Below, piece by piece: positions 7,736-31,412 of a stretch of 43,869 bases of DNA. Under the pieces are notes generated by a model. The model had not been told where the DNA came from. It worked only from the letters and a program-made list of their open reading frames with translations, and ran no database searches. Location of the stretch: assembly GCA_003215545.1 (NCBI GenBank), contig QCKF01000010.1:1-43869 (forward strand), given 5' to 3'. This stretch comes from Prochlorococcus sp. AG-409-L14 (lineage in GTDB: Bacteria; Cyanobacteriota; Cyanobacteriia; PCC-6307; Cyanobiaceae). The translations under genes and the position numbers were made by a program. Every line of letters starts with the position of its first letter. The stretch's first letter is position 1.

Positions 7736-7809
7736 CGGGGCGTGGCGCAGTTTGGTAGCGCGGGTGCTTTGGGAGCACTAGGTCGCAGGTTCGAATCCTG
7801 TCGCCCCGA
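7736..7809 (+). tRNA. tRNA-Pro (UGG anticodon)
   Basis: The acceptor stem CGGGGCG pairs with CGCCCCG before discriminator A. The D arm has GCGC on both sides, the anticodon arm GGTGC-TTTGGGA-GCACT has loop anticodon TGG, and the T arm GCAGG-TTCGAAT-CCTGT is intact. No CCA is encoded. Its 3' 45 bases recur at 22.6, 26.8 and 31.4 kb, which identifies it as the integration target. Partial copies elsewhere lack the 5' half and are not genes. Confidence 0.97.
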
Positions 7810-7818
7810 CTGGCTTTT
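7765..7818 (+). repeat. att site: 3' half of tRNA-Pro plus 9 bases
   Basis: Identical over 54 bases to 22600-22653; 45 of these bases also occur at 26793-26837 and 31368-31412. The segment runs from the anticodon stem through the acceptor end, as expected for a tyrosine recombinase attachment core in a tRNA gene. Confidence 0.9.
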
Positions 7819-7839
7819 TGGTGATCTTGAATTGGGAAT

Positions 7840-7862
7840 GGGCCCTCATTGGGCCCTCCTGA
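7840..7862 (+). repeat. GGGCCCTC pair, possible recombinase arm sites (left end)
   Basis: GGGCCCTC occurs at 7840 and GGGCCCTCCTGA at 7851, just inside the left att copy. The same pair, also ending CCTGA, lies at 22455-22477 just inside the right end. Matching repeats at both ends suggest arm-type binding sites for recombinase or excisionase; this role is an inference. Confidence 0.55.
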
Positions 7863-7899
7863 ACTTAAAGACCTCAGCGTTGGTGGGCTTTTGTGCCTT

Positions 7900-8817
7900 C
7901 TAAGGCTTCCTGTTATCTGCTGTTTCTCCAGACAAGAGCGTTTTCAAATAACCACGGAAGCCCAACTGTTGGGTCTGCGGTTCTTCGATGACCTTTTCTT
8001 CGGTTTGTGGATGAAGAGCTTGTGAATATTGCTCGGCATAAGCGCAGTTCTTACAGCTTTCATTGGGTGCTGGAATCTCACGTTGATTCATCAAGGCGAT
8101 CATCCTGTCCACCTCACTTCCTATCCAGCTGCTATCCCATTGGTAAGGGACTAAAGCCTCCTCAAAGTGCATGGCCTTATTGAAATCTTCCTTGCTTCGA
8201 TCGGCATTACAGACCAGGAAGTAAGCCGTTGGATGAACAGCAAAACCCATGCCTGACAGCAAGTAGGCATAGAAGTCCATCTGGGTCAGATAACCCTCGT
8301 GATAGGGGTCTTCTAGGTACTCAACAGGATCAACGCTTCTGTTCTTGGCTTGAGATTTGTAGTCAACAATGATCAGTTCTTTGGTGTGGGTGTCTTGCCA
8401 GATGTCATCGATGCCACCACCTAAAACAATATTGGTGTCCTTATGTCTGAGCTTCAATCCACCGTGTAGAGAGTTTCTCCAGGTATCCATTTCTTCGTGC
8501 TTAAACGGCACAACATGATCCAATCCATAAGCACTAAATAGACGATGGGGGACTTGAGCTTCCCTGCATTGATCAAACTCTTTCTTTAGGAGTAGGTCAG
8601 TCGTTTCATTGAGGGTCCACCCAGGAGTGCCAGGAGGATCTAGTCCTCTAACGCGATCGAGATAGAAACACCTTGGACAAGTCAGAAAGTCAGAGAACTT
8701 ACTTCTACTGATCTTGAAATCAGTTGCTTGGTTAGGCGTATAGATCGACGTAGACCTGGTGCGATGCCCAGGTGCCTTAACGGGTATTTTTTTGCTGTTC
8801 CGTTTGAGGTCAATCAT
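7900..8817 (-). CDS. RecB/Cas4-like PD-(D/E)XK nuclease
   Basis: 305 residues with a RecB-type nuclease core: GGIDDIW (Asp137), IIVDYKS (Asp152, Lys154) and a downstream QMDFYAYLL (Gln179, Tyr183). Four cysteines in a Cas4/AddB-like layout, CPRC (47-50) and CKNC (255-258), could hold an iron-sulfur cluster that ties N- and C-terminal parts together. The family cuts DNA ends. It is the last gene of a leftward operon, three bases after the BRCT protein gene. A remnant of its first 18 or so codons lies at 35692-35760. There is no CRISPR array nearby, so a Cas role is not supported. Confidence 0.82.
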   Translation of the reverse strand: MIDLKRNSKKIPVKAPGHRTRSTSIYTPNQATDFKISRSKFSDFLTCPRCFYLDRVRGLDPPGTPGWTLNETTDLLLKKEFDQCREAQVPHRLFSAYGLDHVVPFKHEEMDTWRNSLHGGLKLRHKDTNIVLGGGIDDIWQDTHTKELIIVDYKSQAKNRSVDPVEYLEDPYHEGYLTQMDFYAYLLSGMGFAVHPTAYFLVCNADRSKEDFNKAMHFEEALVPYQWDSSWIGSEVDRMIALMNQREIPAPNESCKNCAYAEQYSQALHPQTEEKVIEEPQTQQLGFRGYLKTLLSGETADNRKP

Positions 8818-8820
8818 TGG

Positions 8821-12099
<3,279 letters not shown>

Positions 12100-12492
12100 T
12101 CATGCTTCTTTCTTCTTAGAAGCCACCTCAGCTTCAAGGGTGAAAGTCACATTCTGATCAGGACTGAAGCGATCCACCAGTGTTTGAAGTTCTTCTTTCA
12201 TCTCGGCTTCAGAGGTGGGTTCGAGTGACTCTTGAACCAAGGCTTCTTTCCAAGCTCGATCAATGAGTTTCTCTAGGGCTGCAGCTTTGATTCGTGCCAC
12301 ACCGATCTGCTGAAGAATGACTTGTTTGGGGACTTTGCCTGGACGGAACCCTGGAAGTCGGATGGAGCCACCTAAACGCGATAAAGCCTCGTCATAACTG
12401 GACTTACAACGTGCAGCAGGAACTTCGATTTCCACTGAGATGCGGTTCTCAGGAAGCTCCGTGACTTTGACTTTGAGTTCAGTTTTGGTCAT
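12100..12492 (-). CDS. Stand-alone trigger factor ribosome-binding domain
   Basis: 130 residues that align with the N-terminal domain of trigger factor, including the ribosome-docking signature GFRPGKVP at residues 48-55. Full trigger factor is about 430-480 aa with PPIase and chaperone arms; these are absent, and the frame ends cleanly with a Lys-rich tail before the next gene, so it looks like a designed short form rather than a recent truncation. The start overlaps the previous gene by 4 bases (ATGA). Likely acts at ribosomal protein L23 near the exit tunnel; why a mobile element carries it is unknown. Confidence 0.85.
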   Translation of the reverse strand: MTKTELKVKVTELPENRISVEIEVPAARCKSSYDEALSRLGGSIRLPGFRPGKVPKQVILQQIGVARIKAAALEKLIDRAWKEALVQESLEPTSEAEMKEELQTLVDRFSPDQNVTFTLEAEVASKKKEA

Positions 12493-12773
12493 GAATTAAG
12501 CCACGTAAAAAACATGCAATCGTCATAGGTAATTCCAAAATGATCACAGGTAGCCTCGTCTCTCTCTTCATCTTCGAGATCATATATTTCATCAGGAATA
12601 TCTTTCCCATCAATAAAGATTGTTAGGGCAGGTCCCGCATCTTTCGAATATGACGGGTCGTCGTCGTCGTCTTGAATCTCCCATGACAACTCAGTTTTTT
12701 CCAGTTCTTTCTTCAAGCTTTTGTGGTCGCTGAAAGTTTCAATTGAAAGACCAGATTTTTTGATGCTTGTCAT
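12489..12773 (-). CDS. Small acidic protein of the 'DxP...CxHxG' family
   Basis: 94 residues, very acidic in the middle (Asp run at 37-40). Its second half, IFIDGKDIPDEIYD, then ATCDHFGITYDD, shares a pattern with the products at 15849-16091, 16150-16515 and 20948-21166: a beta strand, Asp/Asn, Val/Ile-Pro, an acidic stretch, then Cys-x-His-aromatic-Gly. Four members in one element suggest a real domain. Coupled by a 4-base overlap to the trigger factor domain gene. The function is unknown. Confidence 0.65.
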   Translation of the reverse strand: MTSIKKSGLSIETFSDHKSLKKELEKTELSWEIQDDDDDPSYSKDAGPALTIFIDGKDIPDEIYDLEDEERDEATCDHFGITYDDCMFFTWLNS

Positions 12774-12776
12774 TAT

Positions 12777-13184
12777 TTACCCTTCACCCCAGCTGCCTGT
12801 TAGTAGACAGCCTTCTGCATGAAATGCTTCAGGAGGCATACCATTTGCTTTCATATTGTCATCGTCTGTTTCCTCTCTAATTACAATGCCTCGATTATCA
12901 ACTACTTCTGCATCTTGGATTGCAATTGTATAACGCTTCCATCTATATCCAGCATCATAATCTTCTTGATAATTTTCCATAATTTTACCTTCTTCATCTC
13001 TGTAATCGTCCCAATCAATTTCCTCCTCACCACAACCATATTTGTCTTCATGCTCCTGTGTAAACCAAAGTTCACCGCCATGAATTGTATCTAACTTTAC
13101 CCATTCATTCTTTCCTTTTTCTAATTGAATATAGCCTTCTTCTTCTGGGTTGAAATCTGGCGAATCTTCTAATTCCTCAGTCAT
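12777..13184 (-). CDS. Acidic hypothetical protein with an IHGG motif
   Basis: 135 residues, rich in Asp, Glu and Tyr. The segment IHGGELWFTQE (about residues 34-44) resembles the HGG-plus-aromatic segments of the BRCT protein tail and of 13597-14187, hinting at a shared fold or partner. It overlaps the preceding nuclease gene by 4 bases and the next gene follows 3 bases later, so it is an operon member. No enzyme motif is seen. Confidence 0.65.
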   Translation of the reverse strand: MTEELEDSPDFNPEEEGYIQLEKGKNEWVKLDTIHGGELWFTQEHEDKYGCGEEEIDWDDYRDEEGKIMENYQEDYDAGYRWKRYTIAIQDAEVVDNRGIVIREETDDDNMKANGMPPEAFHAEGCLLTGSWGEG

Positions 13185-13567
13185 TTAATTGACCATTTAC
13201 ATTGATGCGCATACTTTTTGTAGACACTCGCGAAGCTTTTATCAACCAATCGTTCTTGAATATTCACTCCATCCTTAGAGAGTTCAGCCACTGTTCTGCC
13301 ATATCTATCCTTCGTAATCCGTCTGATTGAGACCTCTTCTCCAGCAACTAAGCCATTGAGGTAGTCCCTGGCGGCTTTAGCTGGTATGGGATCAGCTCTT
13401 TTTCCTCGTAGCTCTGGGGTATCAATACAAGCCAGTCTGATCTTCTCTCCTTCAGTACTGGTACAGGTATCACCGTCGTAGCATCGATCAATGGTGATGG
13501 TGGTTTGAGCTAAGGCTGGTGGTACCAGAACTAAGACGAGAACCAGGAGTAGATCATGGGGTTTCAT
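13181..13567 (-). CDS. Secreted thermonuclease (SNase-like)
   Basis: 128 residues with a signal peptide to about residue 20 (LLLVLVLVLVPPALA). The staphylococcal nuclease motifs are complete: YDGDT near 30-34, RLACIDTPE (Arg44, Asp49, Glu52) and YGR (Arg91), equivalent to the Arg35/Glu43/Arg87 triad. These enzymes degrade DNA and RNA outside the cytoplasm with calcium. It is coupled to the downstream acidic gene by a 4-base overlap. A secreted nuclease inside a mobile-element operon is notable: it could digest foreign DNA or supply nutrients. Confidence 0.88.
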   Translation of the reverse strand: MKPHDLLLVLVLVLVPPALAQTTITIDRCYDGDTCTSTEGEKIRLACIDTPELRGKRADPIPAKAARDYLNGLVAGEEVSIRRITKDRYGRTVAELSKDGVNIQERLVDKSFASVYKKYAHQCKWSIK

Positions 13568-13596
13568 CTCAATTTGGAAGAGGTTTGGGACTTCAA

Positions 13597-14187
13597 TTAG
13601 CCATCACCCCATCTTGAGATTCCTCCTACATCAAAAATATCTTCATACCTCACTCCTTGAGCTTCAACCTCAAATTTTTCATCTATAAGTCCTGTTATTC
13701 CATATTCCGCTGCGATAAGTGAACTGATTTCTTTTCTCATCATTGGTTCTGGCAAGTTCTCCAAAAATTCCTTGATGTTTTCATCATCATTATCAAAACT
13801 ACTGTCTTCCTTTAAGGACTCTTTGTTGATGGGGCCCCAATCTTTGATGTCATAGAAATCAGGATCAGATTTGATTATTCGTTCAGGAACATAGACAAAA
13901 CCACCATGAATCTCGTCTGTGTAAACCAAATGATCATGATTATTTTCTGTGAAAACAAAGTAAGAAAGTGGAATGTCTGGGAAAAAAGAATTCGATGGTT
14001 CTTCTTTTTTTTCTTCTATGGCTTTGGCTAAAGCCTCTTTATAAAACTCCGTAGATAAGAACCCACAAAGCTTGGCGAGTTCATCCTCTGACCTATCTGA
14101 AAGTTGAGAAGCAATATCAGGCAGAACTCCTTCTATGCCCTCTGCCCATTCATGAAGTTTCTCTTCCTGCTCAGATGAATCAGTCAT
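13597..14187 (-). CDS. Protein with the same C-terminal domain as the BRCT protein
   Basis: 196 residues. The segment HGGFVYVPERIIKSDPDFYD and the terminal GVRYEDIFDVGGISRW match the tail of the 1091-aa BRCT protein ([11 protein letters not shown] and [16 protein letters not shown]), and both end in a Gly-Asp/Asp-Gly dipeptide. The N-terminal half is helical and acidic. The gene leads the tightly packed part of the leftward operon. I do not recognise the family; the shared tail suggests a shared binding partner. Confidence 0.65.
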   Translation of the reverse strand: MTDSSEQEEKLHEWAEGIEGVLPDIASQLSDRSEDELAKLCGFLSTEFYKEALAKAIEEKKEEPSNSFFPDIPLSYFVFTENNHDHLVYTDEIHGGFVYVPERIIKSDPDFYDIKDWGPINKESLKEDSSFDNDDENIKEFLENLPEPMMRKEISSLIAAEYGITGLIDEKFEVEAQGVRYEDIFDVGGISRWGDG

Positions 14188-14232
14188 TGACCTTTTTCTT
14201 CCATTCTCTTTCTAGCTGTGATACGCATCCTT

Positions 14233-14364
14233 TCAATAATGCGGAGGTTTTGACTCCTCAACAGGGAAGTAAGCACGATCTTCTTCGTCTGGATCTTGCT
14301 CCCTGAGGCTTTCTTCTACCTCGTCATACGAGTCGTCATCAAAGTTCCGTTCAGACTTGGTCAT
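14233..14364 (-). CDS. Small acidic protein C of a duplicated three-gene set
   Basis: 43 residues beginning MTKSERNFDDDSYDEVEE and ending EESKPPHY. A copy at 38120-38251 differs mostly by conservative changes, which supports coding. Its ATG overlaps the stop of gene B (ATGA). It is highly charged and soluble; the function is unknown. Confidence 0.65.
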   Translation of the reverse strand: MTKSERNFDDDSYDEVEESLREQDPDEEDRAYFPVEESKPPHY

Positions 14365-14462
14365 GACTTGGCTTCTTTTCTGCCTTTCCAAATCAGGAGC
14401 AGTGGCAAGCCAACGAGCATCAAGCTGCCATCAATTAATAGGTAGGTGTTTAGCATGCTCAT
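14361..14462 (-). CDS. Very small membrane protein B of a duplicated three-gene set
   Basis: 33 residues starting MSMLNTYLLIDGSLMLVG, with one hydrophobic helix (to LPLLLIW) and a basic tail KGRKEAKS. It overlaps gene A upstream and gene C downstream by 4 bases each, so all three are probably translated together. The counterpart at 38.3 kb has a one-base deletion and is broken. Confidence 0.55.
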   Translation of the reverse strand: MSMLNTYLLIDGSLMLVGLPLLLIWKGRKEAKS

Positions 14463-14605
14463 TCCTCAACCCTCACATCGACTCTCTCTATCCGCTGCTC
14501 ATCTTTAAGCAGCATCTGTTTGACCGCATAGGCAGCAACACCAAAGGTCACCAAGACACCAATGGTCTGAATGAAATCGATGTAGGTGGCAGTGAGGTGG
14601 TTCAT
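14459..14605 (-). CDS. Small membrane protein A of a duplicated three-gene set
   Basis: 48 residues starting MNHLTATYIDFIQTIGVL. A hydrophobic helix (IGVLVTFGVAAYAV) is followed by a charged coiled segment (LLKDEQRIERVDVRVEE). GGAAAC sits just before the ATG. A homologous gene lies at 38345-38491. A single-span membrane protein with a cytoplasmic or lumenal helical tail is likely; the function is unknown. Confidence 0.6.
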   Translation of the reverse strand: MNHLTATYIDFIQTIGVLVTFGVAAYAVKQMLLKDEQRIERVDVRVEE

Positions 14606-14627
14606 GTTTCCTTTCTAGCTGATCTAG

Positions 14628-15170
14628 CTACCCCCTCTTACCTTTTAGGTCATCCCATATTTCGTCTTCCGTTGCGTCCCTAGTAAGAGGTGGGTCTGAA
14701 GAAAATAACGTTTTGCGGAAGGCTTTCTGCTCTTCGGTCATGGTGAAATCATAGAAATCCATGATTTTGGGAGATACCCCCCAAAAAGCAAGCGTGAACT
14801 CCTCTCCGGAATAGGGACTTTCTTCCATAACTTTTTCAGCCTTTTCATCTAATGGCTCTACTTCGAAAAGGGAAAGCATGTACTTCCCTATCTCGCTTCC
14901 AGCAGGGAAATCTTCATCAATAAGGTATACACCCAGCTCATCAGCTAAATCCTGGGTGAAAAATTTTTCAAATACTTCTTTCTCGAGATACATCGCACTC
15001 ATCGAATGATTATCATCAACCCTAAATTTCCCTCCTTTGTATTCCATAACTCGATTTTCTTCTTCTATATCTGAATCCCAGTCCTCAAAAGCAGCCTCTT
15101 CTTCTATAAAAGATTCCTTTGAGAGATCAAGCTCTTCAAGACGCTTGCGCCAGTCACCTTCAAGTCCCAT
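14628..15170 (-). CDS. Acidic hypothetical protein, 180 aa
   Basis: Starts MGLEGDWRKRLEELDLSKE and is Glu/Asp-rich throughout. It includes a 'MEYKGGKFRV' segment weakly like the HGG segments of its neighbours and an aromatic block 'LAFWGVSPKIMDFYDF'. No enzyme motif or membrane span is visible. It follows the HTH gene at 15209-15613 on the same strand, 38 bases apart. Confidence 0.6.
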   Translation of the reverse strand: MGLEGDWRKRLEELDLSKESFIEEEAAFEDWDSDIEEENRVMEYKGGKFRVDDNHSMSAMYLEKEVFEKFFTQDLADELGVYLIDEDFPAGSEIGKYMLSLFEVEPLDEKAEKVMEESPYSGEEFTLAFWGVSPKIMDFYDFTMTEEQKAFRKTLFSSDPPLTRDATEDEIWDDLKGKRG

Positions 15171-15208
15171 AGATCCTTCCTTCTTTATCTTTATTGCCTT
15201 CCTTCGTT

Positions 15209-15613
15209 TTAGCTGGAAATATCGATAACTGTTGGGCCTCTCTCTAGGGAAGCAAGTTGCTCTTGAAACACCTCCATCTTTTCTCTTAGGTCCTCATCAG
15301 TGCAGTGTTCCTTGTAGATCTTGAATAACTCAGCGCAAGCACTCACCTTGGCGTAGTCACGAGTTTTCTCTGATAAAGCGACTTTCAATAATGAATCGGC
15401 TACAGCAGGTAGAGCATTAGCGATTTTGCTCATCGCTGTTTGCCTTTGTTCTTTCCGAATGTCTTTGAGGTATTCCTTGCACTCTGGGTAATCCCGATAC
15501 TTCCGAAGGGTCCGGATATGACACCCTGCAGCATCTGCAGATTCTTGCCATGTAGCACCAGAAGCCCGAAGCATCAAAGCAGAAAAAATCTTTGGTGGAA
15601 CCTCAGTTTCCAA
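15209..15613 (-). CDS. HTH protein resembling phage terminase small subunits
   Basis: 134 residues. An N-terminal helix-turn-helix at about 14-42 (GATWQESADAAGCHIRTLRK) is followed by 'YPECKEYLKDIRKEQRQ' and a long helical bundle with 'LPAVADSLLKVAL...DYAKVSACAELFKIYKEH'. This layout, an HTH then repeated helices that end in a charged tail, is that of many phage small terminase proteins, which recognise packaging sites. In phage satellites such a protein redirects packaging. It could also be a plain regulator: a 14 bp palindrome lies upstream in the divergent spacer. Confidence 0.6.
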   Translation of the reverse strand: METEVPPKIFSALMLRASGATWQESADAAGCHIRTLRKYRDYPECKEYLKDIRKEQRQTAMSKIANALPAVADSLLKVALSEKTRDYAKVSACAELFKIYKEHCTDEDLREKMEVFQEQLASLERGPTVIDISS

Positions 15614-23566: not shown

Positions 23567-23614
23567 CTACATGCCTAAGGTCTAAGTCTTTTTTAGCTGG
23601 AAAAATCAATCCCT

Positions 23615-23719
23615 TCAGAAGAGGGTGAATAATTCGCCTTCGAAACCACATTCCCGCATGTGGACGATCCACCGCACTTCATCCTCTTGGACTGTTGGTC
23701 TTCTCCCGTTAGTCACCAT
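23615..23719 (-). CDS. Small conserved protein, 34 aa
   Basis: Starts MVTNGRRPTVQEDEVRWI and ends MRECGFEGELFTLF. The last 14 residues recur exactly at 36181-36225 and the flanking DNA is also alike, so this is a repeated small-gene family. Whether the peptide is made is uncertain. Confidence 0.45.
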   Translation of the reverse strand: MVTNGRRPTVQEDEVRWIVHMRECGFEGELFTLF

Positions 23720-23738
23720 GTCTTAGGAGACGATTCAA

Positions 23739-23802
23739 TGATGTTCATTAGATTGGAAAGACTGGTTATGTCGATGGAGTTCCAAGCACTGCGCTGTCGG
23801 CC
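23739..23802. repeat. 64 bp repeat shared with 4858-4921, upstream of the Mrr gene
   Basis: Nearly identical to the segment in front of the DUF481 gene. The minus-strand small gene it belongs to has lost its ATG here (ATA instead) and stops early, leaving only the leader and about 15 codons. The Mrr gene starts just after it. Confidence 0.7.
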
Positions 23803-23838
23803 CACTTGTTTTACTTGTCCCTTCTTTTTTGTCTAAAA

Positions 23839-24765
23839 GTGATCGATATTCCAAAGTTTCATGAGTTCATGACTCCTTTATTAGAAGTTTTAAGGGAGAA
23901 AGGGGAGATGCATGGACATGATGCTATTTCTGCTGTTGTGAATAAGGTTGGGCTAAAAGAAGATCAACTAGCAATTACCCAAGAAAGTAATGGTCGCTCT
24001 GTTGCAAAAGAAAGAATTAAATGGGCAGCTTCCTATTTGAAAAAAGCTTCAGCAATTGTTCAGCCTCAAAGAGGGGTTTTTGATTTAGGACCAAATGCCA
24101 ATAAGTTGCTCAATCTTGATCGAAAAATAACCATTGCCGACTTAAAAGAGATAGAAGAATGGAAGGTATATGAAGCAGAAAGAGCCTTACAAGCATCAGA
24201 CAGTCAAATAAAAGACGACATTAATAACCTTGGTGATGACACACCAGAAGATTTGATTGACAAGGGCATCAAGGTGCTTAACTCTCAACTTGTTGATGAG
24301 CTACTTGAACAAGTCAAAGCAATTTCCCCTGAAGCTTTTGAAGGTTTAGTTTTAGAAGTTTTGGCAAAAATGGGTTATGGAGGTGGAGATGCCAGACAAA
24401 TTCAAGGTGTTCCCCGTGGTCCTGATGGTGGTATCGATGGCAAGATCAATGAAGACAAGCTTGGACTTGATCAGATTTATATCCAAGCCAAGCGTTACTC
24501 AGATAATTCTGTAGGCCGACCAAAAATTCAAAGCTTTGTTGGTGCAATGAATGGGGGTGGATGTAAAAAAGGTGTTTTTGTCACAAGCAGCACCTTTACT
24601 TCCGAAGCAAAGACTTATGCAGAGGGATTACGCGATCTTCGCTTGGTTCTCATTGATGGAGTTGCACTTGCAAAACTAATGATTGAGCACTGTGTAGGTG
24701 TTCAAGTTAAAGAGACCATTCAGATTGCAAAGATCGATCAAGACTTCTTTGGCGGAGACGAATGA
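23839..24765 (+). CDS. mrr: Mrr-type restriction endonuclease (type IV-like)
   Basis: Two domains: an N-terminal winged-helix Mrr_N domain (IPKFHEFMTPLLEVLREKGE to VQPQRGVFDLG) and a C-terminal Mrr catalytic domain with GPDGGIDG (Asp211 counted from the 23806 ATG) and IYIQAKRY (Gln227, Lys229), followed by 'KGVFVTSSTFTSEAK' as in the family. Relatives cut methylated foreign DNA. The GTG at 23839 fits the usual Mrr start; the ATG at 23806 adds 11 unlike residues. Two tiny genes follow with 4-base overlaps. No modification methylase is present, consistent with a modification-dependent enzyme. Confidence 0.88.
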   Translation: MIDIPKFHEFMTPLLEVLREKGEMHGHDAISAVVNKVGLKEDQLAITQESNGRSVAKERIKWAASYLKKASAIVQPQRGVFDLGPNANKLLNLDRKITIADLKEIEEWKVYEAERALQASDSQIKDDINNLGDDTPEDLIDKGIKVLNSQLVDELLEQVKAISPEAFEGLVLEVLAKMGYGGGDARQIQGVPRGPDGGIDGKINEDKLGLDQIYIQAKRYSDNSVGRPKIQSFVGAMNGGGCKKGVFVTSSTFTSEAKTYAEGLRDLRLVLIDGVALAKLMIEHCVGVQVKETIQIAKIDQDFFGGDE

Positions 24766-24965
24766 CTGAACTCCATGAAATGTTGGCTTTCTATCAGTCA
24801 AAAGACTTTGAATCACTTAGCTATTGTGAGTTAACGGAGTTTCGAAAGATTGCCCTCAGGTATAGAGATAAGAAATTAGCAATGCAAATATACAAACAAA
24901 AACAAAAGCTGATTAACGAAGGAAAAGTTTCTAGTAAAGAGTTTTTAGCGGCAGCTTACCTATGA
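24762..24965 (+). CDS. Small protein coupled to Mrr, 67 aa
   Basis: Starts MTELHEMLAFYQSKDFESL and is helical and charged. It overlaps both the Mrr gene and the next gene by 4 bases (ATGA), so it is translated with them. The family is unknown. Accessory or inhibitor of the nuclease would fit the position, but there is no direct evidence. Confidence 0.6.
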   Translation: MTELHEMLAFYQSKDFESLSYCELTEFRKIALRYRDKKLAMQIYKQKQKLINEGKVSSKEFLAAAYL

Positions 24966-25147
24966 AAAAAAAGAGAGGAGACCTAAGCCGTTTTACTAAA
25001 CCGACATCTTTTGCAGGTGAAAGTGCTGATCTGGATTTTCCATTTGTCGACAAAAATGATCCTGACTATCCACTGAAGATCGCCTTATTAGTAGGAGCAA
25101 CCGTCACTTTTAATGGAGTGGAGAAAACCTTTGAAGATTTTGATTGA
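24962..25147 (+). CDS. Small protein at the end of the Mrr operon, 61 aa
   Basis: Begins MKKKRGDLSRFTKPTSFAGE and ends ATVTFNGVEKTFEDFD. The start overlaps the previous gene by 4 bases. Basic at one end and acidic at the other, with no membrane span. The function is unknown. Confidence 0.6.
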   Translation: MKKKRGDLSRFTKPTSFAGESADLDFPFVDKNDPDYPLKIALLVGATVTFNGVEKTFEDFD

Positions 25148-25180
25148 GATTAGATGTTCATATTTGCTATGCATTACGTT

Positions 25181-25462
25181 TTATTCCTTGAAATGACCTT
25201 TTTCACACCAATATTTGATACCTGATGTAGCTGTTTCCATCCTTAGATCTGCTCCTATCTGACAATTACCTGAGTTGTATTCAAAATCTTTATAAGCATC
25301 AAAGGTGGCAACATGCACCCTGGCATTTGCACCAAGTAAATCACTTTCGCTATATAAAGTGACAACTGACTCTTTAGAAGGAAAAAGTATTGAAAGATCC
25401 GTAATAGATGATGCCCCCACTCCTAAAGCAATGGCAATGCTAAGAAATTTCATTTTGGACAT
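25181..25462 (-). CDS. Exported small protein, 93 aa
   Basis: A signal peptide is likely from Met4 (MKFLSIAIALGVGASS). The mature part has two cysteines (NCQIGADL and YWCEKGHFKE) that could form a disulfide. A short relative of its first 15 residues occurs at 35802-35924 (MHKMKFPSFAVALGV). The function is unknown. Confidence 0.6.
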   Translation of the reverse strand: MSKMKFLSIAIALGVGASSITDLSILFPSKESVVTLYSESDLLGANARVHVATFDAYKDFEYNSGNCQIGADLRMETATSGIKYWCEKGHFKE

Positions 25463-25568
25463 GACCCATTGCGACTTTAAGTATCCCTATAAGGCAAGTA
25501 GATAGCTAGCCTTCTTTCCGCAAGTGCCGTTACGACGGAAGAGGTAAGCGGCGCATGATTATTTGTCC

Positions 25569-26006
25569 TTAGGTTTGGGCAGTTTCGTTCTCAAGCCATA
25601 TTTCATCTATTTCTGCTTTGAGTTTTTCAAAGTCATGGTTGTTTAATGGGCAATCTTTTTGCACTTTGCTCACGATGAAGGCCCCTATGTCTGCAAAGTA
25701 TTTTTTTTGATATTCATCTATGGATTGATTCCTCTCCTCATTTGTCAGTTCATCCTGCTGCCCTACATCAAAGCCGTATTTCAGGAAGTCAGTGTTTAAA
25801 AGAACTCTCCACCATGCACCCGCTATTGAAGTTCCAAGTGCACTTTCAAAAGACAGACCATCATTTCTCGCTTCGCAAAACTTAGAGGCCACATGCTTAC
25901 TAAGCTTGTACTGCGAGGGAGTTAAATCTGTGTCTTTCGCATTGGTCGCAATAGGGTGAATAAAGATTGTTATTGCAATCAGACAAGCAAGTAGTAAGCG
26001 GCCCAT
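25569..26006 (-). CDS. Exported hypothetical protein, 145 aa
   Basis: A clear signal peptide (MGRLLLACLIAITIFIHPIA, cut near TNA). The mature part is helical with 'KFCEARNDGLSFESALG' and a second Cys in 'QKDCPLNN', so a periplasmic disulfide is likely. It overlaps the upstream membrane-protein gene by one base. Not a family I can name. Confidence 0.65.
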   Translation of the reverse strand: MGRLLLACLIAITIFIHPIATNAKDTDLTPSQYKLSKHVASKFCEARNDGLSFESALGTSIAGAWWRVLLNTDFLKYGFDVGQQDELTNEERNQSIDEYQKKYFADIGAFIVSKVQKDCPLNNHDFEKLKAEIDEIWLENETAQT

Positions 26007-26257
26007 TAGAAATATCTCCTATATGGTCGCCCATCCTTAGTTCTAGCTTCTGTATAACGCCCACCTCTAGGGCCTCGTTTTTTCTGAGGTTTACTATTTA
26101 TATTTTTGTAGAAGTCCGGCATTGTTGATTCATATTCATATGGCTCTTGTTCTACTCCTTGCTTGGAATCGTGCTGAACGGATCGAATAACAAGGACAAT
26201 AAATACCACGGGTATGGCTATAGAACCAGCAATTATCCATTGCATAAACTCAGACAT
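26006..26257 (-). CDS. Single-span membrane protein with basic tail, 83 aa
   Basis: An N-terminal helix (WIIAGSIAIPVVFIVLVIR) is followed by a soluble tail rich in Arg, Gly and Lys (KKRGPRGGRYTEARTKDG). It lies directly between two other envelope-type genes on the same strand. The Arg/Gly tail could bind RNA or acidic lipid; that is an inference. Confidence 0.55.
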   Translation of the reverse strand: MSEFMQWIIAGSIAIPVVFIVLVIRSVQHDSKQGVEQEPYEYESTMPDFYKNINSKPQKKRGPRGGRYTEARTKDGRPYRRYF

Positions 26258-26509
26258 TTATTTGCCTCCAGTAATTCTTGGCCGTGGCCTAATACGTCCC
26301 CACCAGATGTATCTAGACACTAAAAAACTTGATATGAGCCAAATGGGAATAAAGATATTGCTTCTATATTGAAACCATCCACATCCATTAAAGAGACGCC
26401 AGCAAAACTCCCCAGTCACCCATTGCAAAACACCAGTCAAAACAAATAACACTACAACTGCAAGAAAATTGAGCGCAAGACGAGCAAGTTTGTTCTGAGG
26501 TAGTTTCAT
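26258..26509 (-). CDS. Two-span membrane protein, paralogue of 28268-28549
   Basis: Starts MKLPQNKLARLALNFLAVVV and ends RPRPRITGGK. The start (MKLPxxK) and the basic RPRIT end match the protein at 28268-28549, with hydrophobic helices between. First gene of a three-gene leftward set reaching to 25569. Confidence 0.6.
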   Translation of the reverse strand: MKLPQNKLARLALNFLAVVVLFVLTGVLQWVTGEFCWRLFNGCGWFQYRSNIFIPIWLISSFLVSRYIWWGRIRPRPRITGGK

Positions 26510-26610
26510 TCCGCAATTCTGATTACGACTGCAAATATCAGCAACTAGTAGAAATAGTTTCTCTATTGACTGATCCGATTGGTAGGTCTTTCTGGCTCTG
26601 GTTTTAGCGA

Positions 26611-26837
26611 TCTAGTTTTCCCAAAGCACTAGGTCGCAGGGGGGGGGCGCTCTAGGGGGCGCTAGAAGGTTGAAAGCCCTTTAAATACGTTCTAATTCCT
26701 TGCAATATTGAGTCTCAAATCGATTTACCTGACTTCTAAAGACCCTTTAACAGCAATGGTTCTGAGCAAGTCTCATCTTTTGAGGCCTTGTCCTTTGGGA
26801 GCACTAGGTCGCAGGTTCGAATCCTGTCGCCCCGACT
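26611..26837 (+). repeat. att module: decayed copy, spacer and intact 45 bp att core
   Basis: The core at 26793-26837 equals 45 bases of the tRNA-Pro 3' half. About 170 bases upstream, 26625-26640 keeps 16 bases of another att copy, followed by a left hairpin arm only (26641-26664). The order decayed att, arm, CCCTTTAAATACGTT, a GAGTCTCAAAT box, then core is repeated at 31201-31412. Confidence 0.85.
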
Positions 26838-26885
26838 TCTAATTGCAATGGTTTTCGAGGAAGCTCGAAAGTCTCATCTGAGAAA

Positions 26886-26958
26886 GGGGAGCTAGGAGGG
26901 GAGCTAAGAGATTGCAATAGCCCTATTTGCAAGGGGTTGTTCATTGCTCTAGCTCCCC
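26886..26958. repeat. att-linked inverted-repeat module, GGGGAGCTAG type
   Basis: GGGGAGCTAG (26886-26895) pairs perfectly with CTAGCTCCCC (26949-26958). A TTGCAA repeat lies between. Compared with the GGGGCGC modules, both arms have changed together, so pairing seems to be kept by selection. Confidence 0.75.
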
Positions 26959-27033
26959 CCTAGACGATTGCTGCTGGGAAGAATCGAGCCTTCCGGACGA
27001 CCTACAAAGAAAGAAGTCCTAAGAGGGACCCAT

Positions 27034-27255
27034 TCAACACTTAGGAAGGTTTGACTCTTCTTCGCTTCTTTTAACTGAGGGATTCCGATAACAACATCGA
27101 TCAATAATGGGAGCTATACCTTCTTCTAATTCTTGTAGAAGCTCAGCTTTAAATACTTCTCTATTCTCAAGCGTTGGTGGTTCGTACCCTGATTCTTGAA
27201 CATCTAATAAAAGAGCCAAGATGGTTCTATGGAAAAGGGGGTGACGTAAAGACAT
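27034..27255 (-). CDS. Hypothetical protein, 73 aa
   Basis: Starts MSLRHPLFHRTILALLLDV, with a short helix, then 'FKAELLQELEEGIAPIIDRC' and two adjacent cysteines. The start lies directly after the stop of the DUF1330 gene, so it is likely co-transcribed. The family is unknown. Confidence 0.55.
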   Translation of the reverse strand: MSLRHPLFHRTILALLLDVQESGYEPPTLENREVFKAELLQELEEGIAPIIDRCCYRNPSVKRSEEESNLPKC

Positions 27256-27597
27256 TTACATGCCCATTGCTCTTCTTAGTTTTGTTGCTTCATCCATCCC
27301 TTCCATGATCGTGAAGGTTGCATTCTCTGTAGCGGCTTTGCGGATTTTGATTAGCTCTTGATACTCCGCTGATTCATAAGCCTCAACAGCTATACGCATG
27401 GAAGGGAACTCACAAATAACAGCTAAGTTTGCACCTTCTGTTTGTTCTTTCCCTTGCGGCTCAGTATCTTTTGCGAAGACTTTGCCCCCAACTTCTTTTA
27501 GCCAAGGCCCTACCTTTTCTACGTATTCAGCAAAGAGTTCTTGATTAATAACTGTTGAGGTTGAGATCCAATAACCTTTTGCACCTTTTTTGTCCAT
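27256..27597 (-). CDS. DUF1330 family protein
   Basis: 113 residues with the DUF1330 dimeric ferredoxin-like pattern: KGYWISTSTVINQELFAEYV, 'GGKVFAKDTEP', a 'VICEFPSMRIAVEAYESAEY' block and 'YQELIKIRKAA'. A second member lies at 42862-43161. Proteins of this fold are often small monooxygenase-like or binding proteins; the substrate is unknown. Confidence 0.82.
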   Translation of the reverse strand: MDKKGAKGYWISTSTVINQELFAEYVEKVGPWLKEVGGKVFAKDTEPQGKEQTEGANLAVICEFPSMRIAVEAYESAEYQELIKIRKAATENATFTIMEGMDEATKLRRAMGM

Positions 27598-27639
27598 AAG
27601 AATAAGTGAGTCGAAAGAGTAGGGATGTGCCCTCCATCG

Positions 27640-27791
27640 ACATCAAAGCATTTCTTGGCCTAATTAACATCACCGAAACGTCCCGTAAGGACGAGGTGAT
27701 TACTTCTGCTTGCGAGTTGGTCGATCAGCAAGATGCAGTAATCAAAGACCTACAGGGCAAACAGAAAACTGTTTTTGTACTGAATAGTTAG
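27640..27791 (+). pseudogene. Degraded copy of the 4709-4888 small gene
   Basis: The frame keeps LINITETSRKDEVIT and CELVDQQDAVIKDL but the original ATG is ATC, and the hydrophobic tail is cut to VFVLNS. A GTG at 27606 could still start a 61-codon product with an unrelated first part. Confidence 0.55.
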
Positions 27792-27947
27792 CTAGGCAGG
27801 GTTGCCTGCGTAAGCGGGCTCATAGACCGGTGAGCCAAGACCACCGCCATCTTCGTCGTCGTCATCATCAAAACTGGAGAACAGAACCCAGATTCCCCCC
27901 AGTGCAAACACTGCGGAGATTCCAATACTTGCTAGGTCGAACTCCAA
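27792..27947 (-). CDS. Small single-span membrane protein, 51 aa
   Basis: Starts at TTG (no ATG in frame): EFDLASIGISAVFALGG, a hydrophobic helix to about residue 24, then an acidic run of five Asp, Gly-rich linker and a Tyr/Pro tail. It resembles the other short one-helix proteins of the window in layout. The start is uncertain. Confidence 0.5.
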   Translation of the reverse strand: MEFDLASIGISAVFALGGIWVLFSSFDDDDDEDGGGLGSPVYEPAYAGNPA

Positions 27948-28001
27948 TTTGAAAATCAAAAGTACAGAGACCCTACTTGGTTAAGAGTCGAATTGAGAGT
28001 T

Positions 28002-28157
28002 TTAATCAGCGGCTTCTGTTTGAAGAGTCTTTAGGAAGCGCTTCCTTTGACCACTGGCTTCCACCTCTGTGTACCAGCCACAAGCAAGTCTGTGATCTAT
28101 CTCTTCAAAATTGGGCGTTGATTCCAGCTTCGAGAGTCTTTTCTTCGGTTGATCCAT
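28002..28157 (-). CDS. Small conserved protein, paralogue of 614-790
   Basis: 51 residues: MDQPKKRLSKLEST, then NFEEIDHRLACGWYTEVEAS and GQRKRFLKTLQ. The core is almost identical to 614-790, although the two lie 27 kb apart, which points to duplication or separate delivery. The overlapping plus-strand frame at 27977-28408 is a shadow. Confidence 0.65.
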   Translation of the reverse strand: MDQPKKRLSKLESTPNFEEIDHRLACGWYTEVEASGQRKRFLKTLQTEAAD

Positions 28158-28267
28158 TTGTGGATTATTCACTATTGGCATTCCTTTTTTCTGTTATGTC
28201 AGTTACATCTATGAGCCCTGCGCCTCCACTTTCTTTTACGGCCAACATTTCTCTATTGAAGGGCCGC

Positions 28268-28549
28268 TTACTTCCTGTTCTTCAATTCATCAACAACAGA
28301 GTCCCACTTTTTACCTGCTCGTTCTTCTTCAAGACTTCTCGTAATCCTTGGCCTTGTCCAGATGAATATCACTGCAGCAATTGGAAGAACAAGAAACACC
28401 GGTCCTAGGAGCAAGAGAAGCGAGTAAAACTTGCTTAGAACAAACGCCTGACTTAGGAAAAAGAAAAAAGGCGCAGCAAAGAACCAGCAAAACAGAGTGA
28501 AGAGAACGCTTATTAGTAAGCGAGTGGATTTTTTGTGTGGAAGCTTCAT
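28268..28549 (-). CDS. Two-span membrane protein, paralogue of 26258-26509
   Basis: Starts MKLPHKKSTRLLISVLF and carries two strong hydrophobic helices (about 11-33 and 41-63), then RPRITRSLEEERAGKKW. The start and RPRIT motif match 26258-26509. The cytoplasmic tail is longer and charged here. Confidence 0.6.
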   Translation of the reverse strand: MKLPHKKSTRLLISVLFTLFCWFFAAPFFFFLSQAFVLSKFYSLLLLLGPVFLVLPIAAVIFIWTRPRITRSLEEERAGKKWDSVVDELKNRK

Positions 28550-28581
28550 TACTTAATTTTGCCCACAAGAGAGTTGGGTGT

Positions 28582-28785
28582 CTAAGCCGCTTTTGGAGCA
28601 GCGTTTCTCTTTGCATAAAGATCTGCTATCCCATCTGGAATGAACCGGGCATAGCTCTCTAAATGGACCTCAAGGGTGTGACCCATAGCAGCAGCGATAT
28701 TGGAAAGAGGGAATCCAGCAGCTAGAAAAGCCAGGTGTTCAAGCTTTGTTTCCCGTTGTCTTTTGGCATAGGTATTCTCAGTCTT
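28582..28785 (-). pseudogene. Tyrosine recombinase C-terminal remnant
   Basis: An uninterrupted frame with no start reads YAKRQRETKLEHLAFLAAG, then AAAMGHTLEVHLESYARF and ends with a stop. AMGHTLEVHLESY matches the Gly-His and nucleophile Tyr boxes of recombinases 1 and 2 (AMGHSLQTHLQSY). The catalytic Arg boxes are lost, so it cannot work. It is the last trace of the recombinase of a third element. Confidence 0.8.
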
Positions 28786-28804
28786 GGATCAGTAAGGAAA
28801 GTTT

Positions 28805-29518
28805 TTAGGCGAAACCGTTCCTTTTGGGATTTGTTTTGCTGCCGGCGGTAAGGAAGTGCGTTTTATCACTGCCAACGTCATAGAGGGTGTAATTCAAACC
28901 AGCTCCAATGCCAATCACGCTTCGCTTGGGAACTTCCTGTTGTTGTTCACGTTTACCGTTCAGATCCTTTACTTGTGAATTGATTCCTCCTCCAGTCAGT
29001 TCAAGATGAAATTGTTTAGTACTGCGCGCTGTGAACAGTCTGTTCACATTGAGACGGGTGAGTCGATCAAGGAGGATCAGTGGAGACGTTTCAGATGTGA
29101 GGTTGTCACCCACGTCTGAAGAGCTTCCATGGATGAGTGCACAGTCAAGTTCAATGAAGCCAAATTGAAGTGATGCCAGCCAGTTCAGGTTAGAAGGATT
29201 AACAGTGTTTAGCAGTGCATTGACTGCGTCTTCTCCTTGGCTGAGCCGCAGAGCATCAGCTTTGCGTTCACCACGAAACCCACGCTCTGCAAGTAGTTGC
29301 TCTTCCCACCAGCCATAGATGCAATCTGGTTTTAAATCGCCGCGATGAGGATTTTTTAGTCGATCCAACAATGCGTCACAGTTGCGTTCGGGTCCGACTA
29401 GGTCTCCAAGTACAAATAAGGATGTAACTCCACGAGTCTTCTTTAGATCCCGTTGAATTAGGTCATAGGTTTTGAGATTTCCGCGTAGACCACTTACTAG
29501 TGCCCATCTTTCAATCAT
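28805..29518 (-). CDS. Degenerate metallophosphatase-like protein
   Basis: 237 residues in the calcineurin-like phosphoesterase pattern, but metal ligands are missing. It keeps FVLGDLVGPERN and IHGSSS, while the first motif reads VSGLRGN (no Asp or His), the Asn box reads IYGWWEE, and the GHTH box reads LFTARST. It is parallel in order to the intact neighbour 29515-30330 and overlaps it by 4 bases. Probably not an enzyme; a partner or regulator of the neighbour is more likely. Confidence 0.75.
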   Translation of the reverse strand: MIERWALVSGLRGNLKTYDLIQRDLKKTRGVTSLFVLGDLVGPERNCDALLDRLKNPHRGDLKPDCIYGWWEEQLLAERGFRGERKADALRLSQGEDAVNALLNTVNPSNLNWLASLQFGFIELDCALIHGSSSDVGDNLTSETSPLILLDRLTRLNVNRLFTARSTKQFHLELTGGGINSQVKDLNGKREQQQEVPKRSVIGIGAGLNYTLYDVGSDKTHFLTAGSKTNPKRNGFA

Positions 29519-30330
29519 CGTTCACACACATGACTTGCATCTTCAGCCTGTTCGGCGAATTCAAAACCATGACTTAGTCGCCATGCGAAGACTTTCGGTA
29601 GCCCCGCCTCGACAATCGCTTGACAAGTTCGAGCAACGTCATAGGCCACCTCTTTTATCTCAACTTCATCAGTTGCATCGTTGTGTATTACATAGGTGGC
29701 ATTGGTACTTCCATGACGTGGCTCGCCTACTGATCCTGCATTAACGATTTTGCGCATCGGCAGTGTCAGTTCTTCACCCTGATCACAGTCATGGTCAGCA
29801 TTTTGTAAACGCACACGAATAGATCCATCTCTCAACTCACGTACATAAGGCTGGTGGGTATGCCCGCAAAACAGAATATCGGCCCCCGCTGTTTCTACTC
29901 GCTCGAGAGCCGCAAATGCATCCATGTCTGGCAGAAGATACTCATGCTGACTGTTGGGACTGCCATGCACGAAGAGAAGTCGATCACGACGTAATGAGGT
30001 TGGGAGGCTGGCTAAAAAACTTTTGTTTTCGTCCGTTAGCTGATCATCTGTCCATTGGTGAGCTAGGTGCCCACGCCTTTCTGCTAGCTGAGAAGGGTAG
30101 CTGCACTCGCAGGCATTAAGACCATCGATGATATCTTCATCCCAGCAGCCCTGGCAGGTTGCGATGCCACGCTTTCGTATCAGCTCAACTACTTCGTTTG
30201 GCTGGGGGCCATAGCCAACTAAGTCGCCAAGACAGGTAATGGTGTTAATCCCTTGCCTGTCAATGTCATTCAAGACGGCTTCCACTGCAGGGAGATTGGC
30301 GTGTAAGCAAGAGATAATTGCGTGATTCAT
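29515..30330 (-). CDS. Calcineurin-like metallophosphatase
   Basis: 271 residues. Motifs in order: ISCLHANL (the usual Asp before His is Cys), CLGDLVGYGPQP, QGCWDE in place of the Asn-His box, FVHGSP, and FCGHTHQPY. Most metal ligands are present, so some activity is likely, but two positions are altered. Family members hydrolyse phosphoesters with two metal ions. It is the middle gene of the CobW operon, five bases after the CobW-like gene. Confidence 0.8.
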   Translation of the reverse strand: MNHAIISCLHANLPAVEAVLNDIDRQGINTITCLGDLVGYGPQPNEVVELIRKRGIATCQGCWDEDIIDGLNACECSYPSQLAERRGHLAHQWTDDQLTDENKSFLASLPTSLRRDRLLFVHGSPNSQHEYLLPDMDAFAALERVETAGADILFCGHTHQPYVRELRDGSIRVRLQNADHDCDQGEELTLPMRKIVNAGSVGEPRHGSTNATYVIHNDATDEVEIKEVAYDVARTCQAIVEAGLPKVFAWRLSHGFEFAEQAEDASHVCER

Positions 30331-30335
30331 GGTGA

Positions 30336-31121
30336 TTAACTTGAGGGAATAGCTTCTTTTTGTTGATCTCTAAGAGGCATTTGATGCATCTCCAATACGG
30401 CATCGTTTAGTAGGCAGAGGTCAATCGTTGATTGAATGCGTAAGCAATCAAGATGTTTCCCTTGCACGACAAGCTCAGACAAGCTGGCAGGCCTGCCATT
30501 TGGATCTGAAATTTCTTGAAGAGGAAGGAACTGTGAGCTTTCTTGACTCACGATCCAGTTGAAGAACATAGATCGCCCATCTGGCAAGTTCATCAACGCC
30601 TTAGCTCGATAGACGTCGCCATAGGCTCCGTTCACTAGCTCGAACCAAAAGGTATTCAGGCTGGGTGGATCCCAGACGCTGCGATTAAGACTGAGATTGA
30701 GGGATTCAAGTTTTTGGAACTCCAATTTGTCTTTGCTTGGCAATTCATGATCACGACCAAAGTGGAGATGCCTATCAGGTTGAAGTTGCAATGCTTCAAG
30801 CTGATTTTTGATGCGAGGATCGATACCCGCTAAGTCAGCATGCTGAGGAGAGTGGAACTGAGGAAGCTCAATCAATGCCAGCAAGTCACCTTGTTGCGAC
30901 CTGGAGGCATGTTGGGTTTCAGATAGATCTAGCAGTTGAGGAATTTGATCTTTGAGAAATGCTTGATCAATTCCAGAGTTAGATGCCTGCTCGAGCCCTA
31001 TATCGGAATGACCATCGAGGCGCAAATATCCGCATGCACCAGGATGACTAAGCATTGTTTTGAGTATCCAGCTGGTTTTTCCACACCCTGGCGAACCCGA
31101 GATCAGCCATGTCTGACTCAT
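30336..31121 (-). CDS. CobW/COG0523-like P-loop protein
   Basis: 261 residues. Walker A GSPGCGKTS at about residues 8-16; the C-terminal half has the CobW_C pattern (DVYRAKALMNLPDGRSMFF, then SELVVQGKHLDCLRI). The CxCC metal motif of classical members is not seen, and the protein is about 80 residues shorter than usual. COG0523 proteins handle zinc, cobalt or iron as metallochaperones and are often under Zur. Here it leads an operon with two phosphatase-like genes behind a Fur/Zur-type palindrome. Confidence 0.72.
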   Translation of the reverse strand: MSQTWLISGSPGCGKTSWILKTMLSHPGACGYLRLDGHSDIGLEQASNSGIDQAFLKDQIPQLLDLSETQHASRSQQGDLLALIELPQFHSPQHADLAGIDPRIKNQLEALQLQPDRHLHFGRDHELPSKDKLEFQKLESLNLSLNRSVWDPPSLNTFWFELVNGAYGDVYRAKALMNLPDGRSMFFNWIVSQESSQFLPLQEISDPNGRPASLSELVVQGKHLDCLRIQSTIDLCLLNDAVLEMHQMPLRDQQKEAIPSS

Positions 31122-31162
31122 TCTTGGAACGATGACAGGTCACGAGAAAATCTATCAAATAA

Positions 31163-31183
31163 TGAAAACGATAACCGTTTTAA
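31163..31183. promoter_or_regulatory. Fur/Zur-like palindrome upstream of the CobW operon
   Basis: AAAACG, five bases, CGTTTT (31165-31181) form a perfect inverted repeat inside an AT-rich tract, 45 bases before the CobW-like start. The shape and the GATAAC centre resemble Fur-family boxes; Zur is favoured because of the gene behind it. Confidence 0.5.
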
Positions 31184-31200
31184 TTTTTGCCTCAGGACAA

Positions 31201-31412
31201 TCTAGTTTTCCAAAGGACTAGGTCGCTCATGGGGAGCTAGGAGATTGCAATCCCTTTAAATACGTTGCAATTTTTGGCAATATTTGAGTCTCATATGACT
31301 GTAGCTATTTTCTAAACCCAAGCCATAGCAATGGTTTTGAGCAAGTCTCATCTTTAAAGACATTGTCCTTTGGGAGCACTAGGTCGCAGGTTCGAATCCT
31401 GTCGCCCCGACT
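31201..31412 (+). repeat. att module: decayed copy, spacer and intact 45 bp att core
   Basis: The core at 31368-31412 equals 45 bases of the tRNA-Pro 3' half. At 31201-31247 there is a decayed att start followed by a left hairpin arm of the GGGGAGCTAG type. The spacer repeats that of 26611-26837, including CCCTTTAAATACGTT and AGCAAGTCTCATCTT. Confidence 0.85.

Follow-up and report, generated by a model that had tools for sequence, protein, structure and literature searches.

A tRNA-Pro gene of Prochlorococcus as a probable two-sided hotspot for integrative elements bounded by private paired iterons

In Prochlorococcus and its relatives, gene turnover concentrates at genomic islands, many of them at tRNA genes, and loss of the recombinase from many of the elements within often obscures their limits. 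Tycheposons, which are transferred in vesicles or phage capsids, were reportedly described in Prochlorococcus by Hackl et al. in Cell in 2023 and are said to use seven target tRNAs. A contig of Prochlorococcus sp. AG-409-L14, in which one tRNA-Pro(UGG) gene is followed by partial copies of itself, raises the question whether such copies delimit separate integrative elements and whether these occupy one side of the gene or both. The analysed window was this whole contig (C10 of genome G000; 43,869 bp), which belongs to a 1.15 Mb assembly of 35 contigs rated 64% complete. It was concluded that the locus is very probably a two-sided integration hotspot, with three stacked elements, the start of a fourth and relics downstream of the tRNA gene, and a mirror-image recombinase end upstream of it.

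The intact tRNA-Pro(UGG) gene, the shared target, is located on the forward strand at 7736-7810. ARAGORN reported it as a single tRNA-Pro(TGG), and it was the sole match of an Rfam scan; the other tRNA-Pro of the assembly has the anticodon CGG and lies on a separate contig. The 44-nt 3' part of the gene was found four times, always on the forward strand (at 7766, 22601, 26792 and 31367, with 0-1 mismatch), and did not occur in 100 shuffles. Identical runs of 54 nt (7765-7818 and 22600-22653) and 45 nt (22602-22646 and 26793-26837) were measured. The three forward-strand partial copies listed in the initial annotation are therefore real: att2 (22600-22653; a 54-nt perfect match to the 3' part of the gene plus adjoining bases), att3 (26790-26837) and att4 (31365-31412), the last two being 48 nt long and 98% identical to the tRNA. 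That list was incomplete, as two inverted and decayed copies on the reverse strand had been overlooked, at 35023-35076 (85% identity, accompanied by the start of a left arm) and at 35361-35401 (33 of 41 bases).

The copies split the region into blocks of 14,835, 4,191 and 4,575 bp, annotated before as about 14.8, 4.1 and 4.5 kb. Each block carries one type of short direct repeat (iteron) at both of its ends, and the types of neighbouring blocks differ. In block 1 (7766-22599), a complete 3'-side element with its cognate recombinase, TGGGCCCTC repeats lie after the tRNA (7839-7861) and before att2 (22454-22476), the latter about 20 bp from the start of the recombinase gene. Block 2 (22654-26789), which has no recombinase, displays GGGGCGCT repeats after att2 (22674-22695) and before att3 (26644-26665). 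In block 3 (26838-31364), where only a recombinase remnant is left, two GGGGAGCT repeats follow att3 (26886-26905) and one precedes att4 (31231-31238). On the strength of these matched pairs, which differ from one block to the next, the three blocks were considered separate elements. Beyond att4, the left arm of a fourth element was recognized at 31413-31555 by its GGGGCGCT iterons (31462-31481); no right att was found for this element. A rearranged left-arm remnant without att is present at 32980-33073.

The pairing of arms was evaluated on 21 elements. Same-element arm pairs (n = 21) shared words with a mean length of 10.6, against 7.9 in 420 mixed pairs (Mann-Whitney p 2e-7, with the elements drawn from nine genomes and related pairs counted as independent). 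Shared words of at least 9 letters were observed in 16 of the 21 same-element pairs and in 24% of the mixed ones; the interval of Prochlorococcus sp. AG-409-N21 (G019) included in this comparison skipped a divergent att copy. In recombinase-side arms, the longest direct repeat (at least 7) was offset by exactly 11 bp in 33 of 38 cases. Offsets of 10-12 bp were found in 35 of the 38 arms; 200 mononucleotide shuffles, which preserve base composition only, averaged 1.2 such arms and never exceeded 4. Two recombinase loci without att (L043 and L060) were left out of this tally and of that of closed attP sites given below. Lambda-like integrases bind arm-type sites, and the iterons look like sites of this kind. 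In genome G031, a left arm with TGGGCCCTCCTG accompanies a remnant of 54 residues that matches the end of the block 1 recombinase at 89% identity, indicating that iteron type and recombinase type travel together there.

The window encodes two recombinases, both on the reverse strand: YR-left (428 aa; 6242-7528), located upstream of the tRNA, and YR-right (423 aa; 21163-22434), the recombinase of block 1. They are homologous, with 31% identity. Neither was detected by Pfam or NCBIfam; in PHROGs, YR-left gave a weak match to phrog_1 (E 8e-5) and YR-right none. Their identity as tyrosine recombinases was settled by the comparison between both, a home-made hidden Markov model (HMM) and the predicted fold. 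The predicted model of YR-left had a mean pLDDT (predicted local distance difference test) of 79.6, and all nine of its matches in the PDB at E ≤ 0.001 were tyrosine recombinases, the Tn1549 integrase among them with E 2.8e-5. A phmmer search of YR-right against the PDB returned only short matches, two of them to a protein called Tako8, and these were dismissed. When a profile of 40 family proteins was run on the window, YR-left, YR-right and a C-terminal remnant in block 3 (28585-28788, reverse strand; HMM E 5e-7) were obtained and nothing further. Among the downstream blocks, the recombinase is thus intact in block 1 alone and reduced to a fragment in block 3, as had been annotated.

Outside the window, YR-right is 91% identical to a recombinase of Prochlorococcus sp. 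AG-363-M17. Related recombinases were collected at 43 named loci, from records titled Prochlorococcus, Synechococcus, Cyanobium, unnamed cyanobacteria and a metagenome-assembled genome titled Bifidobacterium breve. Two contigs of the latter (L118 and L141) encode family recombinases with 46-50% identity to YR-left; this genome is probably a mislabelled or mixed bin. The 40 recombinase genes of the profile comprise the hotspots fetched and the best matches to YR-left, not a random sample, with matches shorter than 900 nt dropped. The 3' half of tRNA-Pro adjoins 33 of them at a distance of 118-366 bp, an intact tRNA with the recombinase on its 5' side adjoins five, and neither adjoins the remaining two.

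The borders of the copies are also informative. Copies of the 3' part beside recombinases begin at tRNA positions 25-32 (22 of 27 at 28-31), and 5' copies end at positions 40-47 (four of seven at 42); the core of the shared target is presumed to be the anticodon stem-loop. Tandem duplication or homologous recombination in a variable region, with no site-specific recombinase involved, could also leave partial tRNA copies, and the richness of the region in dispersed repeats and the presence of inverted att copies would suit such an origin. It would leave unexplained the narrow range of starting points, the distances of 118-366 bp to a recombinase gene and the arms with paired iterons. Moreover, no protein match was listed among blocks 1, 2 and 3 (open reading frames, ORFs, of at least 70 aa; E 1e-5). 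Duplication is accordingly regarded as a very improbable origin of the copies.

The initial annotation had described a downstream array ending at 31412. The downstream stack was supported; the array is probably not one-sided, given YR-left upstream, and it extends past that limit, given the fourth left arm beyond. The YR-left gene starts about 207 bp upstream of the intact tRNA-Pro. Because an insertion of the 3' type would not place a recombinase there, a 5'-side element was invoked. Its right arm would extend over 7529-7735, with two 11-bp iterons AATGTACGCAA at 7544-7568, and the left part of the contig (1-6241) is presumed to be either its body or an older island. The G000 arm can be aligned with those of G019 and G028 as far as the tRNA. 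By eye, a TACAAT at 7721-7726 can be read as a candidate -10 box for tRNA-Pro; a promoter scan reported nothing directly before the tRNA, TACAAT included, and the one site that it gave, a weak one, is about 80 bp off. The native flank gene trmFO (identified by NCBIfam) is located 5-10 kb before tRNA-Pro in relatives and on another contig (C8) in G000. As the contig does not reach the distal end and the assembly yielded no 5' half, the 5'-side element of the window was inferred from relatives.

A 5'-type element that is complete and a tRNA whose 5' side is unoccupied were observed in relatives only. The one-contig genome G112 contains a 5' half (134409-134450) and the intact tRNA (177691-177763), which a recombinase precedes by about 195 bp, and the 43 kb element has GAGAGCTG iterons at both ends. 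In its congener G314, the same 2 kb left flank (88.9%) passes uninterrupted into the intact tRNA, hence the 5' side is unoccupied there. AG-409-N21 carries a recombinase 57-60% identical to YR-left upstream of its intact tRNA, with the arm in common; on another of its contigs, a 5' half (positions 1-42) is followed by an arm with iterons of the same type, about 8 kb from trmFO. An upstream 5' fragment together with the intact tRNA, the mark of a 5'-fragment island, was thus found in G112 and, across two contigs, in G019. In G028, a recombinase remnant is followed in sequence by a right arm, a 5' half and a left arm, as would be expected of either an attP or an element-element junction.

Given that the window comes as a single contig from an incomplete draft and lacks its left end, YR-left might be the leftover of a 3'-side element brought to the intact tRNA by a deletion, or a chimaera of assembly or amplification. 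The upstream arrangement was, however, found in four further genomes (G019, G023, G030 and G112). Both ends with paired iterons lie on one contig in G112, whose congener is unoccupied on that side, and the three aligned arms reach the tRNA in the same way, which makes a leftover or chimaera quite unlikely. As for its frequency, the arrangement was seen in three of 28 relatives (G019, G023 and G030), a census that sets aside G000, G112 and G061 as selected and whose 28 members include G033, with only 201 bp upstream. A strict 5'-half pattern was found in at least three of 400 family genomes; this number is a lower bound, as the pattern misses G023, G026, G028 and G030. The same pattern had no match in viral contigs, and hence no free 5'-type attP was obtained from them.

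Two further observations concern genomes with 5' copies. A 56-aa ORF of the window (36331-36501) has an IF2_N (IF-2 N-terminal) domain (E 3.4e-6) and is 88% identical to a small ORF directly inside the left end of the 5'-type element of G026. A close relative is present in G028, and the version of AG-409-N21 is broken by a stop; the ORF could possibly encode an excisionase. In G023 (L066, 11061-14666), about 3.5 kb separate the two parts of a former tRNA-Pro, positions 1-46 and 44-76, and an intact gene lies elsewhere.

The five 5'-type recombinases formed two separate groups, with support of 99 each, in a 69-protein tree, which was a quick one without bootstrap and with a long-branch warning; its topology therefore calls for a minimum of two changes of side. 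More distant members of the family adjoin another tRNA. In L154 (Prochlorococcus sp. AG-412-J13; 8391-11233), such recombinases lie about 130 bp to either side of a tRNA-Ala(GGC), both pointing away from it, and in AG-686-J21 (L155) a single recombinase of this kind adjoins tRNA-Ala.

Variation among relatives was in line with repeated insertion. An array shared without length variation, which the initial annotation had named as evidence that would speak against its reading, was not observed: in the stretches fetched, five same-strand downstream copies were counted in G017, three in G003 and two each in G031 and G016, and G010 has one inverted copy. This variable number, together with the matched iterons that each block possesses, makes repeated insertion at one tRNA the best reading, as first annotated. 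The left end of block 1 (7765-8052; att, arm and nuclease C-terminus) is 93% identical in AG-409-N21, where it follows the second partial copy instead of the intact tRNA; the same element type thus occupies another slot. Three segments of the window (31999-32979, 33325-34937 and 36472-38082) are 93-94% identical to G031, in different order and orientation, and the aligned core segments of both genomes, tRNA-Lys apart, are 71-81% identical (the four longest 71-75%). On the simplest reading of these identities, cargo would have been exchanged recently.

The att core was found exactly in 20 IMG/VR contigs, in 18 as the 3' part and in two inside a whole tRNA, with a related recombinase or part of one at 17 of the 20 loci. 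Of the 15 viral contigs that could be tested, 11 repeat the recombinase-side iteron behind att, in the manner of a closed attP, compared with one of 33 genome loci; the 15 are not independent, five having the same iteron unit. They derive from 16 viral recombinase-att pairs, L103 being excluded for too little sequence after att. Judging from this repeat pattern, the 11 contigs look like carriers of a closed attP. Blocks 2-4 could be wrecks of prophages or phage satellites and not cargo islands, an idea that draws on these relatives of YR-left beside att and on the tail, sigma-factor or Erf-like proteins encoded by the three contigs, out of the 20, that were sampled. Against it, no structural PHROGs family was found among the proteins scanned (eight of block 1, one of block 3 and none of block 2), and a tblastn search with YR-left and YR-right gave no match among 50,697 isolated-phage records. 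Such wrecks were judged rather unlikely.

Several points weigh against the two-sided hotspot with stacked elements. The model of YR-left superposes loosely on its structural matches, with TM (template modelling) scores of 0.24-0.42 over the first 11. Five of 18 downstream intervals share no arm word of 9 or more (the second of G061, both of G031, the second of G016 and that of G019), some of the words of 9-14 in common do not stand out as iterons, and 24% of the mixed pairs likewise reach 9. The genomes examined included no congener of the window genome, so that its own empty site was not seen, and the missing 5' half concerns an assembly only 64% complete, with the distal end of the element outside the contig. 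The sequences of G112 and G314 differ past the tRNA, and their comparison covers the left junction only. The 5' copy of G023 lacks the iterons of the recombinase beside its tRNA and belongs to the split old tRNA, while G026 and G028 carry 5' copies and have no recombinase upstream of the intact tRNA.

The repeats, the paired iterons and the family and fold of the recombinases can be read from the sequence. What we infer from them is a mechanism, including the position of strand exchange, the binding of iterons, the order of insertion, the replacement of the promoter and present mobility. A tyrosine recombinase encoded beside attP would bind private 11- to 12-bp direct repeats in both arms as well as the inverted repeat of the anticodon stem-loop, and strands would be exchanged in the anticodon loop. 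In the 3' type, attP would hold the 3' half of the tRNA; insertion would restore the gene and leave a 3' copy at the distal end of the element. For block 1, the closed attP would consist of an arm with TGGGCCCTCCT, the core and an arm with TGGGCCCTCAT. In the 5' type, to which the left end of the window would belong, attP would hold the 5' half, and insertion would restore the gene with an upstream region borne by the element, leaving a 5' copy at the far end. Newer insertions at the intact tRNA would shift older ones outward, and these would lose their recombinase and decay.

A wider proposal is made tentatively and, taken as a whole, is rather doubtful. Each element at the shared tRNA would have a private address, composed of a recombinase and matching 11- to 12-bp iterons, by which neighbours could be mobilised independently; recombinase-less blocks would be satellites awaiting a matching recombinase. 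The family would have switched at least twice between rebuilding the 3' and the 5' half of the tRNA, and the 5'-type element would supply the promoter of tRNA-Pro(UGG), so that it could not be lost by imprecise deletion.

The cargo of the downstream blocks was confirmed as separate, except for one assignment. Block 1 encodes a PD-(D/E)XK (Cas4-like) nuclease (7900-8817), a 1091-aa protein with BRCT, DUF6891 and TPR domains (8821-12096), a DUF3987 helicase/primase-like protein (16935-19343; cargo or replication module) and an endonuclease VII-like/HNH protein (20096-20920), all on the reverse strand, besides a lone trigger-factor N-domain and an SNase. The 1091-aa protein adjoins the lone trigger-factor N-terminal domain (8821-12492), an odd pairing for which a defence or chaperone role is possible. 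Block 2 carries an Mrr-type IV restriction endonuclease on the forward strand (23806-24765; Mrr_cat E 2.6e-35, mREase_IV E 8.2e-70), and block 3 a calcineurin-like metallophosphoesterase on the reverse strand (29515-30330) and a DUF1330 protein. The CobW protein annotated in block 3 was not recovered: the two proteins scanned (28805-29518 and 30336-31121) had no CobW match in Pfam/NCBIfam at E 0.01, nor was CobW found among solved-structure sequences at E 1, where 28805-29518 gave one unrelated match (E 0.56).

In blocks 2 and 3, att-like scraps (CACTAGGTCGCAGG at 26620-26640 and GACTAGGTCGC at 31209-31226, respectively) were noticed immediately to the left of the right-arm iterons, about where a recombinase gene would begin; they are perhaps scars of recombinase loss. 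A 390-nt dispersed repeat occurs at 14226-14619 and 38112-38505 (89% identical), is also found in G028 C5 and G013 (91%) and has no Rfam match. Repeats of about 110 nt were detected at 4761-4870 and, inverted, 27660-27769, and at 4841-4952 and 23722-23833; the two were also matched in nine and seven of the other loci compared and are possibly small mobile or regulatory units.

The array shows the swapping of gene cassettes at one spot in streamlined ocean microbes. With paired, element-specific iterons, sequence alone offers a rule for finding where an element starts and stops and which type of recombinase it likely had, also when that gene has been lost. Judging by the mirror-image class, a single recombinase family may be able to restore the 3' or the 5' half of a tRNA. 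The beginning of an essential tRNA-Pro gene would now be part of an element, which poses the question of who drives the transcription of that tRNA.

Arrays at tRNA genes and 5'-side islands are known in general. Among the titles and abstract openings of the literature matches listed, no description of 5'-side elements at tRNA-Pro in these cyanobacteria was found. Islander (PMC4383910) reports 159 of 3919 islands with a 5' fragment and four arrays of three or more, and accepts tandem arrays if every member has its own integrase. As in its islands, a regenerated tRNA with a displaced fragment, an anticodon-centred att and tandems were found here. Block 1 shows the regenerated tRNA, correctly oriented fragment and integrase in between that define an island, while blocks 2 and 3 lack an integrase of their own. 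Unlike those islands, the 3' and 5' classes appear to meet at one tRNA and belong to one recombinase superfamily.

The archaeal integrases of the pTN3 type (PMC8371274) have the tRNA 5' half as attB, with the rebuilt gene reportedly driven from the integrase promoter; the same review, which deals with archaeal recombinases, considers comparable bacterial cases of such 5'-half sites rare. The 5'-type elements described here would likewise restore the tRNA 5' half; they differ in being cyanobacterial and in having recombinases that form two separate groups within a mostly 3'-type family. The siphovirus P-SS2 presents int, a short gap, a tRNA-Met-derived attP and bet, and the tRNA-Met island of MIT9313 holds five copies of a 36-bp tRNA match (PMC2784084). 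The order of int, short gap and tRNA-derived attP, as well as a host island with repeated tRNA pieces, is common to both systems; here the target is tRNA-Pro and not tRNA-Met, and YR-left and YR-right had no tblastn match in the phage collection. A preprint (PMC10187409) describes a picocyanobacterial integrase family upstream of tRNA-Phe or tRNA-Cys, often near a serine recombinase. It resembles the present case in having the recombinase directly upstream of a tRNA in Prochlorococcus/Synechococcus islands and differs in the tRNA (Phe/Cys instead of Pro) and in the serine recombinase often nearby, the two being compared by description only.

Tycheposons are described as cargo-carrying elements of 4-200 kb (PMC10872708), with further descriptions in PMC11389934, PMC10803314 and PMC12416821. 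The locus shares with them cargo elements of at least 4 kb at a Prochlorococcus tRNA with a tyrosine recombinase: the tRNA gene borders a variable island, the blocks measure 14.8, 4.2 and 4.6 kb and bear cargo, and a tyrosine recombinase is present in block 1 and the 5'-side element, though not in blocks 2 and 3 alone. AG-409-N21, AG-363-M17 and other Prochlorococcus records likewise hold related recombinases and tRNA-Pro copies. On transfer in vesicles or capsids, the apparent closed attP sites beside related recombinases in IMG/VR contigs bear only indirectly. The locus would be set apart from tycheposons, as secondary descriptions portray them, by the likely both-sided occupation, the 5'-restoring class, recombinase-less blocks and private paired iterons. 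Three features, then, go beyond the patterns found described: one tRNA is likely occupied on both sides, the iterons are paired and private to their elements, and switches between 3'- and 5'-restoring types have recurred within one recombinase family.

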